A DNA stretch of 64,000 nucleotides from the NCBI RefSeq assembly GCF_002813775.1, contig NZ_CP020370.1, forward strand, positions 1,455,501 through 1,519,500. The letters run 5' to 3'. Each line of letters opens with the position of its first letter. The stretch's first letter is position 1. Source of the DNA: Candidatus Thiodictyon syntrophicum (lineage in GTDB: Bacteria; Pseudomonadota; Gammaproteobacteria; Chromatiales; Chromatiaceae). Position numbers and translations under genes: made by a program. Of the stretch, positions 30,188-49,139 are shown piece by piece. The notes below the pieces were generated by a model. It worked only from the letters and a program-made list of their open reading frames with translations. It was not told where the DNA came from and searched no databases.

Positions 30188-30415
30188 AGATGTGCTTGGT
30201 CTGGCGCAGGAGCAGTCCGGTCGCGCCGACACCGGCCTGGATCAGCTCGATTTCATCCCGGCCATCCCGCCGGCCGCGCAGTCGCTGGTCCGCGCCGCGG
30301 ACCCTACGGGCGCGGAGCCCTCCAGTGGGCTCCGCTGTGCGGACCGGGCATGGCTGGCCGGAGCTACGTCAAGGCCGTCCACGAGAGGGGCTAGGAACAG
30401 GGGGTAAACGGTTAC
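30188..30415 (-). mobile_element. IS66-family remnant
   Basis: 30188-30262 matches the reverse complement of about 42045-42115 (inside the IS66 transposase), and 30262-30415 matches the reverse complement of 41284-41442 (the element's left end), ending in GTAAACGGTTAC. The roughly 600 bp between these parts of the intact element are deleted, as is everything beyond 42115. The outer end abuts an hsdM fragment. Confidence 0.8.
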
Positions 30416-35801: not shown

Positions 35802-37649
35802 TTGCGCGATCCCGTCGAGAAGCCCGCCGGCTCCCAGCCCTGGCCTTGCCTTGGGATCGCCGCGGCCTGCCTGTTACTCCCTTCGGCACCGCCGCGGGCC
35901 GCCCCGGCGCCGATCATTGCCTGGCCGGTGGCGCAATATAACCCCAATACGCTGCCCGATGACCTGATTCTGCCGCTGCCCTGCGGCGGGGCTATGGCCT
36001 TCCGCCCGGTGGCGACCGGCAAGTCGCCAGCGGGTGCGGCGGGACTCGCCCCGGAGCTGCAGCGGCTCTATGGGGTGGTGGGCCGGTTCGATCCATACCG
36101 AACGGGCATCGGCCATCTGCTGATCGGCAAATACGAGGTGACGCGGCTGCAATATCAGGCGGTCGCCGCGGCGGCCCGGGGCCTGGCGTGCCCCAGCCCC
36201 GACGCCCGGTCGGCCCTGCCCCAGGCGGAGGTCAATCGTCGGGATGCGGAAGGCTTCGGGCTCGACCTCTCCCAGTGGCTGGATGGGCGGAAGGACAAAC
36301 TGCCCGATTGCACCGCGGGCCTGACCCCCTGCCTGCCGCGGGTCGATGGGGTCGCCGCCACGGTGCGCCTGCCCGGCGAGGACGAATGGACCTTCGCTGC
36401 CCGCGGGGGGCTCGCGGTCAGCGCCGCTGACTTTGCCGCGCCCGTCTACCCGATGCCGAAGGGTCTCGCCCGCACCCTCATCGGCAAGCGTGAAGGCGGC
36501 AGTGCTGCCGCACCGATCGGCGGCCCGCGCGCCAATCCGCTGGGGCTGCACGATATGCTGGGCAACGTCGAAGAGATCATGCTGGACCTCTACCGGGTAG
36601 AGGGGGCCACCGGCGAGATCGGCGGCTATGTGGTGCGCGGGGGCAGCTTCTATTCCGTGCCCGGTGAGATCGCCGTGACCTTGCGCCGGGAGGTGCCCCT
36701 GCTCAACAAGACCAGCGACACCGGCTTCCGCGTCGTGGCGGCCGTGCCGATCTATACCTCAACGCGGCGGATGGCGGAGGTCCAACAGCAGGGAACTGGC
36801 GGACCGGCGCCGACCCTGGTGCCAGAGCCAGCGCCGCCGGTTGCCCCGACCCCTGCGATTGCGGAGCCGCAAACAGGTCTCCCGGCTGGGTTCCGTGAGG
36901 AGCAGCTCGCACTGCCGGAGCCGCCCCCTGCGATTGCGGAGGCGCAAACACGCCTCCCCTTCGAGCCCGAGATGGTCGAGGTCCCTGGTGGTTCGTTTGA
37001 CATGGGTTGCAGCCCCGGGGACGGTCAGTGCATCGACAACGAAAAACCGGTCCATCCGGTCTCGATCCGCCCCTTCCGCATGGGCCGATACGAGGTGACC
37101 CAGGCGCAATGGCAGGCGGTGATGGGCGAGAATCCAGCCCGCTTCAGAGGCGCCGAGCGGCCGGTGGAGCAGGTCTCCTGGGACGATGCCCAGGCGTACA
37201 TCAAGGCGCTGAATACCAAGGCCAGTCCCGCCAAGCCATACCGGCTGGCGACCGAGGCCGAATGGGAATATGCCGCCCGCGCCGGGACCCGAACCCCCTA
37301 TTGGTGGGGTCAGGAGATCGGCACGGGCAACGCCAATTGTTACAACTGCGGCAGCCGGTGGGATGACAAGGAGACCGCCCCGGTCGGCTCCTTCAAGCCC
37401 AACGCCTTCGGACTCTACGATACCACGGGCAATGTCTGGGAGTGGGTACAGGACTGCTACCACGAGCGGTACGCTGGTGCCCCGTCCGGCGGTTCGGAGT
37501 GGCGTGATGATTGTCTATCCGCTGGCCGGGTGTTGCGCGGCGGCTCCTGGTACAACCTCGCCTGGTACACGCGCGTCTCGCACCGCTTCAGGCTCACTCC
37601 CGCCTACCGCGGCGGAAGGCTCGGTCTGCGGCTGGCCCAGGACCTTTAA
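35802..37649 (+). CDS. exported protein with two FGE/SUMF1 (C-type-lectin-like) domains, copy 1
   Basis: 615 residues. Signal peptide around GIAAACLLLPSAPPRAAPAP, then a degenerate FGE-like domain (about 40-305) with GKYEVTRLQYQAV, LPGEDEWTFAARGG and GLHDMLGNVEEIM, a proline-rich linker with a repeated PPPAIAEAQT/TPAIAEPQT motif, and a canonical FGE domain (about 385-615): MVEVPGGSFDMGC, GRYEVTQAQWQAVM, ATEAEWEYAARAGT, TGNVWEWVQDCYH and RVLRGGSW. After RVLRGGSW the C-terminus reads like a hypervariable region. The start is TTG at 35802 after AGGAGT; copy 2 uses GTG one codon earlier, where copy 1 has GCG. Role unknown: the fold is used for ligand display as well as for formylglycine formation. 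Confidence 0.8.
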   Translation: MRDPVEKPAGSQPWPCLGIAAACLLLPSAPPRAAPAPIIAWPVAQYNPNTLPDDLILPLPCGGAMAFRPVATGKSPAGAAGLAPELQRLYGVVGRFDPYRTGIGHLLIGKYEVTRLQYQAVAAAARGLACPSPDARSALPQAEVNRRDAEGFGLDLSQWLDGRKDKLPDCTAGLTPCLPRVDGVAATVRLPGEDEWTFAARGGLAVSAADFAAPVYPMPKGLARTLIGKREGGSAAAPIGGPRANPLGLHDMLGNVEEIMLDLYRVEGATGEIGGYVVRGGSFYSVPGEIAVTLRREVPLLNKTSDTGFRVVAAVPIYTSTRRMAEVQQQGTGGPAPTLVPEPAPPVAPTPAIAEPQTGLPAGFREEQLALPEPPPAIAEAQTRLPFEPEMVEVPGGSFDMGCSPGDGQCIDNEKPVHPVSIRPFRMGRYEVTQAQWQAVMGENPARFRGAERPVEQVSWDDAQAYIKALNTKASPAKPYRLATEAEWEYAARAGTRTPYWWGQEIGTGNANCYNCGSRWDDKETAPVGSFKPNAFGLYDTTGNVWEWVQDCYHERYAGAPSGGSEWRDDCLSAGRVLRGGSWYNLAWYTRVSHRFRLTPAYRGGRLGLRLAQDL

Positions 37650-37829
37650 CCTTTACACTTTACGACTCTTACCCTTTCTCTTCTTTTCCCCACGCCGCCC
37701 CCGCGGTCCGCGGGCGGGACCGCGACCATGACCGGCCCGGCCTTCACTATCATCCCGGCCACTGCGCTGACTGCGAGGCCGTTGGTCCGCACCGCGGACC
37801 CGACGGAAGGCTGAAGCCTTGGGCTCCGG
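37650..37829. other. short intergenic region with pyrimidine-rich stretch and partial hairpin repeat
   Basis: Directly after the FGE gene is a pyrimidine-rich tract (TTTACACTTTACGACTC, then CTTTCTCTTCTTTTCCCC), and a related tract follows copy 2 at 40998. Near 37783-37829 are pieces of the GGTCCGC and AAGGCTGAAGCCTTGG repeats seen elsewhere. Confidence 0.5.
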
Positions 37830-38726: not shown

Positions 38727-38907
38727 GCGCCGATGGTAAACCAGATGGCGGGGATGCAGAAGCGGCGAAGCGGCCCGATAGCGAAGCCGCCGACCACAAG
38801 GTGTCCGCGGACCGCCCCGAAACCCCATTCTGCCGCCCGGGTTCCGACAACGCGGGCGTCGGCTCGGGTACCATGCATAGGAACCCGCTCGCTATAAGGA
38901 GTCAGCC

Positions 38908-40997
38908 GTGTCGCGCGACGTCGTTGAGAAGCCCGCTACCTCACGCCCTTGGCCTCGCCTTGGGATCGCCGCTGTTTGCCTGTTGCTTCCAGCGCCCTTG
39001 TGGGCCGCCCCGGTGCCGGTCGTCACCTGGCCAACGGCGCAATACAACCCCAATCCGCTGCCCGACGACCTGATCCTGCCGCTGCCCTGCGGCGGGGCCA
39101 TGGCCTTTCGGTCCGCGACCGCCCCAGCGCAGCCAGAACTGGCCCCAAAGGTCGCCGGGCGCGATTTCAGTGCCGTCGGAGGACCCTTCCGGGATGGGCA
39201 GGGCAAGCCCCGCTTGCTGGTCGGCAAGTACGAGGTCAACCGGCTTCAGGTCGCGGCGGTCGGGGCCTTCTCGAATGGCAGCGCTTGCCCCCGCCGCAAC
39301 TTCCGGACGGACGGCTCGCGGCCTCCACGATCGGTTGGCAGGAGGCCATGACTTTCGGCGACGACTGGACCGGTTGGTCGCTCGCCCAGGGCCAAGCCAT
39401 TCCGGACTGCACCGATGGTGCTGGCCCCTGTGTGCCGCGGGCCGACAGCGGCCCCGCCGAGGTCCGGCTGCCCTCCGAGGCCGAATGGGAATTCGCCGCC
39501 CGCGGCGGTCTGGCCGTCTCCGCCGAAACCTTCGCCCAGTCCCGCTTTCCCATGCCGGACGGCATCGGGCGTTACGCGTGGAGCAACGACAATGCAGGCG
39601 GTCAGGTCCACCCCATCGGCACCCGCGGCGCCAGTCCGCTCGGACTGCACGACCTCTATGGCAATGTCTCCGAGATGTTGCTGGACCGCACACTTAGCCG
39701 TACCCCCCAGGGTCAGACTCCGGTCTTCATCGTCCGCGGTGGCGGGCGCTATGACCCGTCCGAGAAACTCACCGCTGACCTGCGTTACGAGGTTCCCATC
39801 CACAACGAGGCCGGGCGGACACGCACCAGTGACACCGGATTCCGGGTGGTTGTCTCGACTGTGGGGGTGCCGAAGGTGTTGCCCCCGGCAACGACCAGCA
39901 ACGCCCAAGACTCGGGCCACACCCCGGAGGTATCGGGCGGGACTCCGATGCGCAAAGAGGTCGAGCCTGACCTCACCGATGAAGAGCGCCGCGAGATTCG
40001 CGGCCAGCTTGATCGTCTCGGGCTTAATGCTGGTCCGCCGCCCGGCGGGTTGTGGTTCGCAGTTCTGGATCTCCTTCGCCGGCTCGGTATCGGTCATGGG
40101 CCGGACCTCTTAGGCGAGCGGGCGCGCGGCGCGCTGGCGACATTTCAGAAGAGTGCGAACCTGGAGGCTAGCGGGTTGGTGACCGCGGAAACACGCCAAG
40201 CGCTCAGGGTGGCGGTAGACGCACTGATCGCCAAAGAATTAGCCGAGGCGGAGCGTCGGGCGGAGCTGGAGCGTCAAGCGGAGCTGGTACGGCAGGCGGA
40301 AATAGAAAAGCAGGCGAAGCGGGACCGCCAAGCCGAGCAGGAACGTTTGGCCCGGCAGGCGATTGTCGAGCAAGAACGCCAGGCACAGCAGGCGGTTCTT
40401 GATCTTCTTTTGCCGATGGCGACATTGCCCGCCGGGTCCTTCGACATGGGCTGCCAATACCCATGTGATGCGAACGAGGGACCCGCCCATCGGGTCACTA
40501 TCCGTGGCTTCCGCATCGGGAAATACAGCGTGACACAGGCACAATGGCAGACGATTATGAGCGCTAACCCCTCCCAATTAAAGGGCGACGAGCGGCCGGT
40601 GGACTCGGTATCCTGGTATGAAGCTCAGGAGTTTCTCAAACGCCTGAACGCCCAATTCCCCGGTAAGCCTTACCGCCTGCCGACTGAGGCAGAATGGGAA
40701 TATGCCGCCCGCGGTGGACTCCATCCCGACTATTGTTCGGAATGTGCCAGTGTATCGAAAGGTAAAATCTTGGAGTGGGTACAGGACTGCTACCATTACA
40801 ACTACGAAGGTGCCCCGTCCGACGGCTCAGAGTGGCGCTGGGGTCCTTGCCTTTCCGGTAACCGGGTGACACGCGGTGGTCCCTGGCTCAAGCTCGATTT
40901 CAAGCTCGATTGGTGCGAGCGTGTCACCAGCCGTGGCATGGGCGACCCCGGCGACCGCTACAAAGAACTCGGTCTTCGGTTGGCCCAGGACCTTTGA
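38908..40997 (+). pseudogene. FGE/SUMF1-domain protein, copy 2, frameshifted
   Basis: Paralogue of the gene at 35802. It starts at GTG 38908 after AAGGAGT with the same signal peptide and YNPNPLPDDLILPLPCGGAMAF. Near 39300-39335 the frame breaks: the first frame stops at 39351 while the second carries on from AASTIGWQEAMTFGDDWTGW to RLAQDL at 40997. Between the two FGE domains, copy 2 has a peptidoglycan-binding-like segment (GERARGALATFQKSANLEAS... TAETRQALRVAV) and a charged coiled coil (ERQAELVRQAEIEKQAKRD), absent from copy 1. The second FGE domain has lost about 25 residues including the TTGNVWEW core (GGLHPDYCSECASVSKGKIL joins directly to EWVQDCYH). Its C-terminus after RGGPW differs strongly from copy 1. 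Confidence 0.75.
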
Positions 40998-46533: not shown

Positions 46534-47850
46534 ATGACCTCTGAGCCGCGCCCATACCGCATCGGCTTCATCACGCTCGCCCCCGGCATCCTGCCCCGCC
46601 ATGGCTGGAGCCTGCTGGCCGCGGCCTTCTTCTCCATTGGCCTGGTGACCTTCATCGCCATCGGCCAGACCTATGTGCTCAATGCGATCCTCAAGGTGCC
46701 GACCACCGAACAGGGGTCCATCAGCGGCAATCTGGTGTTCTGGACCGAGATCATCGCGCTTGCGCTCTTCATCCCCGCCGGGATCCTGATGGACCGGGTG
46801 GGGCGCCGGTCCATCTATGCCGTGGGCCTGCTGCTGCTGGCCCTGACCTATGCGCTCTATCCGCTGGCGACCTCGGTTGACGACCTCTATCTCTACCGCA
46901 TCCTCTATGCCTGCGGGATCGTGGCGGTGGCCGGCGGGCTCTCGACGGTGATGGTGGACTATCCGGCCGAGCGCTCCCGCGGCAAGCTGGTGGCGCTGCT
47001 GGGGGTCTTGAGCGGGCTCGGCATCGTCTTCACCAACCAGGGGTTCGGGGCCCTGCCGCAGGCGCTGGTCAAGTCCGGCTGGAGCGGCGAACAGGCGGGG
47101 GTCATCACCCACCTGGCGGTCGCCGCGCTTGCGGTGGGCGTAGCGCTCCTGGTCAGCATCGGGCTCAAGGGCGGGACCCCGGTGCACAAGCATGATCGCC
47201 CGGGGGTGCGCGAACTCTTTACCAGCGGCTTCGCCCAGGCGCGCAATCCGCGCATCCTGCTCGCCTATGGCGCCGCCTTCATCGCCCGCGGGGACCAGTC
47301 GGTCAATGCCACCTTCCTGATCCTGTGGGGCACCGTGGCCGGGATGGCGGCCGGCATGGGCCATGCGGAAGCGCTCAAGGCAGGCACCATGATTTTCGTC
47401 ACCGCCCAGATCGCCGCCCTGTGCTGGGCGCCCATCCTGGGGCCCCTGATCGACCGCATCGACCGGGTCAGCGTCCTGGCCATCTGTATGGTGCTCGGGG
47501 CCATCGGCAATTTCGCATTGCTGCTGCTCGATAACCCGCTGGCCGGGGGCTCCGCCGTGATCTTCTTTATCCTGATCGGCATCGGCCAGATCAGCGTCTA
47601 TCTGGGTGCCCAATCGCTCATCGGCCAGGAGGCGCCGACCCGTCAGCGCGGCTCCGTCATCGGTGCATTCAATGTCTCCGGGGCCATCGGGATCCTGGTG
47701 GTGACCTCGATCGGCGGGCGCCTGTTCGACTTCGTGGACCCGCGGGCGCCCTTCATGGTGGTGGGGGCGATCAATGTGCTCCTGTTCCTGGCGAGCGTCT
47801 ATGTGCGGGTCAAGGCGCCGAGTCCGCCGATTGACCGGGGTGGGGCTTGA
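46534..47850 (+). CDS. major facilitator superfamily transporter
   Basis: 438 residues with about 12 membrane segments, e.g. WSLLAAAFFSIGLVTFIAIG, ALFIPAGILMDRVGRRSIYA and SAVIFFILIGIGQISVYLGA. The loop-2 motif GILMDRVGRRS is the MFS signature, and ILGPLIDRIDRVSVLA is its half-repeat. Substrate unknown. The stop is 15 bp before a TTG-started TIR-FGE gene with an AGGAG site, so the two may be cotranscribed. Confidence 0.85.
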   Translation: MTSEPRPYRIGFITLAPGILPRHGWSLLAAAFFSIGLVTFIAIGQTYVLNAILKVPTTEQGSISGNLVFWTEIIALALFIPAGILMDRVGRRSIYAVGLLLLALTYALYPLATSVDDLYLYRILYACGIVAVAGGLSTVMVDYPAERSRGKLVALLGVLSGLGIVFTNQGFGALPQALVKSGWSGEQAGVITHLAVAALAVGVALLVSIGLKGGTPVHKHDRPGVRELFTSGFAQARNPRILLAYGAAFIARGDQSVNATFLILWGTVAGMAAGMGHAEALKAGTMIFVTAQIAALCWAPILGPLIDRIDRVSVLAICMVLGAIGNFALLLLDNPLAGGSAVIFFILIGIGQISVYLGAQSLIGQEAPTRQRGSVIGAFNVSGAIGILVVTSIGGRLFDFVDPRAPFMVVGAINVLLFLASVYVRVKAPSPPIDRGGA

Positions 47851-47865
47851 ATCAGGAGCCAGGCG

Positions 47866-49069
47866 TTGGACGCGGACATCTTCATCCGCTATGCACGCAA
47901 GGACCTCGGGCGGGTCGAGCCCATCGCCCGGGCGCTCGCGTCCCTGGGCTATGGCGTCTGGTGGGGCGCGCACCTGCGCGCCGGGAAGCGCTTCCACCAG
48001 GACATCGAGCGGGAACTCGCCGCCGCGCGCTGCGTGCTGGTGGTCTGGACCCAGGCCGCGGTGGCTTCCAACTGGGTCTACGCGGAGGCCAACGAGGCCC
48101 TGGACGCCGATAAGCTGGTGCCGGTCTTCCTCGAACCGGTCAAGCCGCCGCTGCTCTTCCGTCAGGTACTATGGTGTTGACCTGAGCGGCTGGGACGGGC
48201 TATCGGGGCATGGCGAATTCCAGCGGCTTCTGCGCGCCGTCGCGGAGTTGGCCGGGCCTGGTGCGGCAGCGCGTGCGCCGGTCGGTCCCCCGCGGGGTCC
48301 GGCGATCGTCGGCGCGCCTGGGCCCGCGGCCTTGAGTGTCTTCCAGGACCGGCTCAAGGACGGCGGCGAGGGACCGGAGATGGTCTGGCTGCCGCCCGGT
48401 ACTTTCCTGATGGGCTCGCCAGACGGCGATGACCTGGCCTATCCGTCCGAGTGGCCCCAGTACGAGGTGCGCATCGCGCGGCCCTTCGCCATCGGCCGCT
48501 TCCCGGTGACCTTCGCGGACTATGACCGGTTCTGTGCCGCCGCCGGGCACAAGCTACCCCGCGATCAGGGCTGGGGCCGCGACCGCCGCCCGGTGATCGA
48601 CGTTTCCTGGAACGATGCCGTCGCCTATTGCCTCTGGCTCACCGGTCAGACCGGCCGGACCTACCGGCTCCCGCGCGAGGCGGAGTGGGAATACGCCTGC
48701 CGGGCGGGGACCCGGACCCGCTGGTCATTCGGTGACGACGGGGATGCCCTGGGTGCCCACGCCTGGTTGAAGGACAACTCGGGAGGCAAGACCCACCCGG
48801 TTGGGGAGAAGCGGCCGAACCCCTGGGGGCTGCACGACATGCACGGGAATGTCTGGGAGTGGGGCCAAGACCATTGGCACGACAGCTATCAGGGCGCCCC
48901 CAAGGATGGTACTGCTTGGGAGATGACCATAGGCGAGGGGCGTGTGCTGCGCGGCGGCAGTTGGGCCGACGGGGCGCAGGACCTGCGCTCCGCGTGCCGC
49001 AACCGCCTCGTCCCCGGCCTCCGCTTCCTTTACTTTGGTTTCCGGCCGGGCACCGCAACTCCCGGCTGA
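47866..49069 (+). pseudogene. TIR domain-FGE/SUMF1 fusion protein with a frameshift
   Basis: Starts at TTG 47866 after AGGAG. Residues 1-105 are a TIR domain (DIFIRYARKDLGRVEPIARA, YGVWWGAHLRAGKRFHQDIE, VVWTQAAVASNWVYAEANEA) including Glu74, the expected NAD-cleaving residue. At about 48165-48175 the frame shifts: frame 1 ends VLWC-stop at 48180, while the neighbouring frame continues YGVDLSGWDGLSGHGEFQRL and an FGE domain (MVWLPPGTFLMGSPDGDD, GRFPVTFADYDRF, LPREAEWEYACRAGT, MHGNVWEWGQDHWHD, RVLRGGSW). The tail after RVLRGGSW looks hypervariable. A one-base error would restore an intact fusion of about 400 residues. Such fusions are thought to be conflict-system sensors that kill or arrest the cell through TIR activity. 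Confidence 0.75.
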
Positions 49070-49139
49070 CAGGGTACCCCGCTGTCCTTTCCGGTGACAC
49101 CGCTCCAGAGACCGGGCAAGTAGTCGCCACAAACTCCCC

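Follow-up and report, generated by a model that had tools for sequence, protein, structure and literature searches.

Do the C-terminal tails of FGE proteins in a purple sulfur bacterium carry variable repeats (VRs) of a diversity-generating retroelement (DGR), and if they do, where is the element that would have written them? In a DGR, a reverse transcriptase (RT) copies a template repeat, erring at adenines, and the cDNA replaces the VR; this mechanism is established. The question arose from a stretch of 64,000 nucleotides (C1:1455501-1519500, hereafter the window) of "Thiodictyon syntrophicum" Cad16, in which the tails of two FGE copies and of a TIR-FGE gene had been proposed, from the letters alone, to be DGR variable regions. 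The genome of 7,738,984 bases is closed, in three contigs, and the accessible text of its report describes it as complete, with a chromosome and plasmids (PMC5944118). A profile search found the FGE family (PF03781) at 68 places in it. The copy-1 and TIR-FGE tails are both the C-termini of C-type-lectin-fold (FGE) domains (PF03781, Pfam), and for these two the original prediction held in kind; it was not supported for copy 2, which is a decayed gene. The features discussed below are, in window coordinates:

36963-37637, plus strand: second FGE (C-type-lectin-like) domain of copy 1, ending in the variable tail (PF03781 at C1:1492463-1493137; Pfam residues 389-612)
37526-37640, plus strand: putative variable repeat of copy 1, an orphan with no template found in its own genome (codon-position differences to G006:C856; comparisons with the G170 and DGR-B templates)
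37635-37665, plus strand: 3' edge of that repeat (GCCCAG, 37635-37640) and conserved flank GACCTTT.ACC beyond the stop codon (VRs of G170 and G005:C279; alignment of relatives)
37784-37800, no strand assigned: REP-like palindrome GGTCCGC..GCGGACC, 135 bases 3' of copy 1 (pattern scan)
40863-40997, plus strand: tail of FGE copy 2, decayed, with no VR evidence past the common 3' end (43-base match to copy 1)
47851-48180, plus strand: TIR domain frame of the TIR-FGE gene, terminated by a stop and out of frame with the FGE part (TIR_2, 71 bits)
48371-49045, plus strand: FGE domain of TIR-FGE, in the frame 47705-49069 (PF03781 at C1:1503871-1504545; Pfam)
48932-49046, plus strand: putative variable repeat of TIR-FGE, an orphan, with the sisters' conserved end CTTGCCCTAG missing after 49046 (G006 template match)

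Codon usage in the tails

The proposal had leaned on codons ending in C. Copy 1 is a 615-aa ORF (35802-37649) terminating in an FGE domain, and of the 27 codons after RGGSW 17 end in C, versus 240 of the 577 codons upstream of them in that ORF. The sequence is thus as had been described, but the codon list was selective, as the stretch also contains TGG, ACG, TCG, AGG, ACT, GGA and CTG codons, and the pattern alone is weak because 15 of 551 upstream 27-codon stretches of copy 1 are equally rich. The similar pattern claimed for the TIR-FGE tail was borne out (18/27 codons, with 3 of 361 upstream stretches equally rich). Copy 2 also has many codons in C (17/29), but it is decayed and matches its relatives solely in its last 43 bases. 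We rejected C-ending codons as sole evidence for VRs; the case is carried by the comparison with relatives, not by the codon count.

The unexceptional codon use and the abundance of FGE places would both suit ordinary FGE paralogues, in which ligand loops evolve fast under diversifying selection and tails are spread by recombination, with no retroelement involved. The sections that follow bear on this alternative.

Intact DGRs in Cad16 and its genus

Judged by sequence, the genus is rich in DGRs. The Cad16 genome has 11 RVT_1 places, none in the window; we sought templates near all of them and compared these against 59 loci (602,211 bases). Four places adjoin template/VR pairs with adenine-only mismatches, and the search for a DGR-type RT that had been suggested along with the prediction came out positive, giving four DGRs with RT, template and target:

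DGR-A: template C1:2974824-2974950; two VRs with 21 and 13 A mismatches, 0 others
DGR-B: template C1:3498839-3498955 (locus C1:3.494-3.499 Mb); one VR with 12 A mismatches, 0 others
DGR-C: template C1:2229085-2229210; two VRs with 13 and 14 A mismatches, 0 others
DGR-D: template C1:5510069-5510199, in two pieces with 9 and 5 A mismatches, 0 others

In DGR-type RTs, [ILV]GxxxSQ replaces the usual motif; the RTs of DGR-A to D read IGNLTSQ, IGNLTSQ, IGALTSQ and IGNLNSQ, respectively, plus YxDD. DGR-B has an nSTAND1-FGE target and an adjoining bAvd gene (Pfam), and DGR-D serves an unrelated repeat. Three weaker template/VR pairs (L039, L041/L057, L048) have 1-2 non-adenine mismatches each. The companion search for a template matching the flagged tails came back empty in Cad16, both for copy 1 (BLAST, 40 of 65 candidates scored) and for TIR-FGE (BLAST, 40 of 97); own-genome absence of templates rests throughout on BLAST, with 40 candidates scored out of 65 to 134 first-look ones.

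Eight genomes were used for comparison within the genus. Many further template/VR pairs, with 0-2 non-adenine mismatches and adjoining RTs, occur in the congeners G001, G004, G005, G006 and G007.

The TIR-FGE tail fits a template of a congener

A BLAST search of the own genome with 48900-49075 gave 10 matches, itself and weaker ones included (40 of 97 candidates scored), and revealed five sister tails, 81-84% identical and carried by FGE genes scattered over the genome. Compared pairwise, the six sisters differ 88, 173 and 26 times at codon positions 1, 2 and 3 in 360 codon pairs of tail, and 644, 691 and 1034 times in 2108 codon pairs upstream, the pairs not being independent of each other.

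A search of the eight genus genomes (40 of 134 candidates scored) found a match in G006:C746, adjoining a DGR RT with the motif IGSLTSQ. We compared this template with 17 tails over 115 bases. The two VRs of G006 itself differ from it at 18/23 and 17/23 adenines and at 0/92 other bases; for the window TIR-FGE tail the counts are 15/23 and 6/92, for its five own sisters 12-17/23 and 5-7/92, and for the other nine tails 12-16/23 and 6-15/92. Among 15 templates aligning above 50% with the TIR-FGE tail, only that of G006:C746 fits (14/21 A, 6/76 others), the other 14 leaving 20-28 of 71-78 non-adenine bases changed. The tail fits a real DGR template of G006 almost solely through changes at adenine sites. 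For TIR-FGE, this direct fit to an RT-adjoining template already disfavours ordinary paralogy. Plasmid records contained no template for the tail. The conserved end CTTGCCCTAG, kept by the five own sisters, is lost from the window copy.

Two other FGE tails of Cad16 were seen to resemble the template of a DGR in G007 (C480): one at G000:C1:1162277-1162882 (L035; 21 A and 7 other mismatches in 142 bases) and one at C1:3729097-3729324 (L022, L202; 27 A and 9 others in 145 bases). These are possibly further orphan VRs.

A probably emptied DGR locus in Cad16

G006:C746 aligns with Cad16 C1:4113000-4119000 at 88% identity on both flanks (1098 and 1232 columns). Between the flanks, G006 has an HRDC accessory gene (Pfam HRDC, 61.2 bits), the RT (RVT_1, 53.9 bits) and the template. 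The syntenic locus of Cad16 retains both VRs and an HRDC stub (residues 6-42 at 92%), and no RT match was found in this interval. The G006 template matches just the six VRs and weaker relatives in Cad16 (40 of 83 candidates scored); the 64 bases 3' of it are 98% identical at C1:4114869-4114932, with the template itself absent there. The remaining HRDC stub leads us to infer that Cad16 once had the DGR core and lost it, rather than G006 having acquired it. Such a syntenic remnant is hard to reconcile with tails that never had a retroelement. Accessory genes differ between the elements, with bAvd at DGR-B and HRDC at the G006 DGR and, as the stub, in the Cad16 remnant.

The Cad16 locus now contains a RAYT transposase (NF047646, 164.4 bits with a cut-off of 80; Pfam Y1_Tnp under its cut-off) and 12 REP-like palindromes (in L205; pattern scan). 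The motif GGTCCGC..GCGGACC is common to this array and to the palindromes of the window, of which the pattern scan found six, at 30287, 37784, 41355, 41397, 51000 and 51030. Those at 37784 and 41355/41397 stand after FGE copies 1 and 2.

In another congener genome, the same locus (G002:C69:58980-61728, L268) reads VR, RAYT-like ORF, template remnant (118 bases at 93%) and VR. Its HRDC part covers 71 residues at 76%, and no convincing RT match was found in it.

Codon-position differences in the copy-1 tail

For copy 1, we compared differences by codon position in 15 pairs; the row pairing it with G4C6 was left unused, as a gap within the tail puts it out of register. Against its nearest G006 relative, G006:C856, the tail differs 7, 8 and 0 times at positions 1, 2 and 3 over 27 codons, versus 28, 34 and 60 times over 172 codons upstream (Fisher p 1.3e-4). 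VR pairs of intact own DGRs, used as positive controls, gave 7/8/0 (DGR-A) and 10/8/0 (DGR-C), and two FGE pairs without a DGR, the negative controls, 3/0/1 and 0/0/1. With two unlike own FGEs the copy-1 tail gave 16/11/14 and 16/11/13. Copy 1, C856, C538a and C538b form five further pairs, with p values of 0.009-0.031 and 2-4 third-position changes. The copy-1 tail shows, against its G006 relatives, the DGR pattern seen in VR pairs of intact elements.

The pattern with third positions kept occurs in 3 of the 14 aligned copy-1 relatives, all from G006 (C856, C538a, C538b). It is confined to these, because the remaining 11 differ at 7 to 18 third positions of the tail in a wider alignment. That most relatives vary at third positions too is what ordinary paralogues would be expected to show, but the near absence of third-position change beside many first- and second-position changes, as in intact DGR pairs, is not. 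Orthologous pairs of Cad16 and G006 diverge by about 8-13% at third positions; the two genomes are close, and the zero third-position change of copy 1 therefore gives no date for the last activity.

A G006 region, C538:991-8352 (L270), holds two FGE genes (C538a and C538b) with bodies unlike copy 1 and with copy-1-like tails and 3' flanks. Because these bodies are highly divergent from copy 1 and the tails resemble it, the comparison suggests that tails are homogenised separately from bodies.

In the own genome, the copy-1 tail matched only the DGR-B VR (72%), the DGR-B template (69%) and copy 2 (40 of 65 candidates scored). A template of its own was found neither in the eight genus genomes, nor in plasmid or phage records, nor by the family-wide search of 194 genomes by itself (4 candidates scored per genome), from which the closest template in hand, that of G170, was drawn. 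Against the G170 template, 19/29 adenines and 15/86 other bases of the tail are changed, versus 4/86 and 2/86 non-adenine bases in the two VRs of G170 itself. Against the DGR-B template (99 bases), the counts are 14/21 adenines and 21/78 others, and 28/78 non-adenine positions differ from the template of G005:C198. Of 16 templates compared, 14 align above 50%, and against those the tail has changes at 21-29 of 73-80 non-adenine positions. Enrichment of changes at adenines is expected even against unrelated templates, and uninformative, because many FGE tails share homologous positions.

The 3' edge of the variable repeats

The end shared by copies 1 and 2 had been suggested as a homing mark. 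The sequence GGCCCAGGACCTTT lies at 37634-37647 of copy 1, and copy 2 ends with it as well. At this point the VRs of G170 and G005:C279 read GCCCAGGACCTTTGACC, with a GCCCAG-GACCTTT edge, where the G170 and G005:C198 templates have GCCCAGTCCGCC (GCCCAG-TCCGCC). What the two copies share is thus the edge at which VRs of related DGRs end on their 3' side, plus a conserved GACCTTT flank that falls just outside the template-matched part. Many of the 14 aligned relatives have the GCCCAG-GACCTTT edge. Copy 1 retains it as in the G170 and G005 VRs, and TIR-FGE is without the end of its family.

Apart from itself, the copy-2 tail matches only 43 bases of copy 1. The copy-1-like N-terminal part of copy 2 lies at 38881-39351 and its C-terminal part, in another frame, at 38928-40997; with these broken frames and an interrupted FGE domain, copy 2 (38928-40997) is a pseudogene.

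Origin and fate of the tails

We give a probability of roughly 0.82 to the reading that the copy-1 and TIR-FGE tails are DGR VRs, the TIR-FGE writer being lost, the copy-1 template not found and both tails probably frozen. As the anatomy of the loci suggests, a DGR RT would have made errors at adenines while copying a template repeat, and the cDNA would have replaced the VR; AAC-type codons would then encode random residues on the ligand face of the FGE domain, with third positions unchanged from the template. The source for TIR-FGE would be the DGR that survives intact in G006 in the order VR - HRDC accessory - RT - template - VR. At C1:4.113-4.119 Mb, Cad16 would have lost RT and template, where REP palindromes and the RAYT transposase now lie, and six VRs, for which no template was found, would be left without a writer. 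Copy 1 would belong to a tail family served by DGR-B-like elements with Avd, to which G170 supplies the closest template in hand. With the six VRs seemingly lacking a writer and no template located for copy 1, both tails are probably frozen now. The proteins themselves probably acted as conflict or defence sensors, much as the nSTAND1-FGE target of the intact DGR-B would.

The tails could instead still be diversified in trans, by a template or RT that some members of the population have, that a mobile element carries or that the searches missed. Four DGR RTs persist in Cad16, the reading frame of copy 1 is open and its 3' edge intact, and the accessible text on Thiohalocapsa PB-PSB1 reports trans-diversified remote targets and structural variants (PMC10907252). 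We nevertheless consider this unlikely, as no template appeared in the closed genome (BLAST, 40 candidates scored per search), in plasmid or phage records (copy 1) or in plasmid records (TIR-FGE), and as the TIR-FGE VR is missing its former 3' end and the two parts of the gene stand in different frames. Ordinary paralogy is, on the third positions, the template fit and the syntenic remnant described above, highly improbable. That any of the four DGRs intact in Cad16 targets either tail can practically be dismissed despite the likeness of copy 1 to DGR-B, since copy 1 differs from the DGR-B template at 21/78 non-adenine positions, and TIR-FGE from DGR-A, B and C at 21-26 of 73-76, where true targets differ at 0; direct templating by DGR-A, B or C is refuted at the sequence level, and copy 1 was rejected as a DGR-B target.

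Going beyond the preferred reading of orphaned and probably frozen VRs, the genus might share a hypermutation system in which VR tails, together with the flanks 3' of them, pass from one FGE body to an unrelated one and from species to species. We would bet against it at long odds; if true, templates of some species would write tails in carriers without machinery, and receptor diversity would be a property of the pan-genome, not of the cell.

Cross-species template matching would connect DGRs with a set of hypervariable, receptor-like proteins in a purple sulfur bacterium, and it makes orphan VRs recognisable where a template search in a single genome fails. The intact locus of G006 and the emptied one of Cad16 would form a before/after pair of one DGR locus, a natural test of the fate of a hypermutated sensor after the loss of its writer.

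Comparison with known systems

Our literature search found no paper joining DGRs with Thiodictyon. To judge by the accessible text of Dore et al. 2024 (PMC10907252), the DGRs of Thiohalocapsa PB-PSB1 are the closest precedent. Nine DGR loci are described there, some remote or degenerate; loci are degraded by transposons, with MITE-like arrays replacing RT or template, structural variants place intact components beside disrupted ones, and activity was measured from metagenomes. As far as this text goes, the two systems share a Chromatiaceae host, several DGRs per genome, remote targets, degraded loci, and fusions of FGE/CLec targets to nSTAND or further conflict domains, with TIR among related targets. 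Unlike in PB-PSB1 as described there, the template of one family of six dispersed VRs is lost from the closed genome of Cad16 and can be recognised through congeners alone, REP palindromes and a RAYT have taken the place of the lost parts, and the evidence is sequence rather than metagenomic activity.

The G006:C746 DGR is syntenic with Cad16 C1:4.113-4.119 Mb and its template fits the window TIR-FGE tail; unlike Cad16, it keeps the HRDC accessory, RT and template, and its VRs have 0/92 non-adenine mismatches. DGR-B and the DGRs of G170 and G005:C198 belong with copy 1 to one tail family, of which the G170 and G005 VRs have the GCCCAG-GACCTTT edge, and their templates are unlike copy 1 at 21/78, 15/86 and 28/78 non-adenine positions, respectively.
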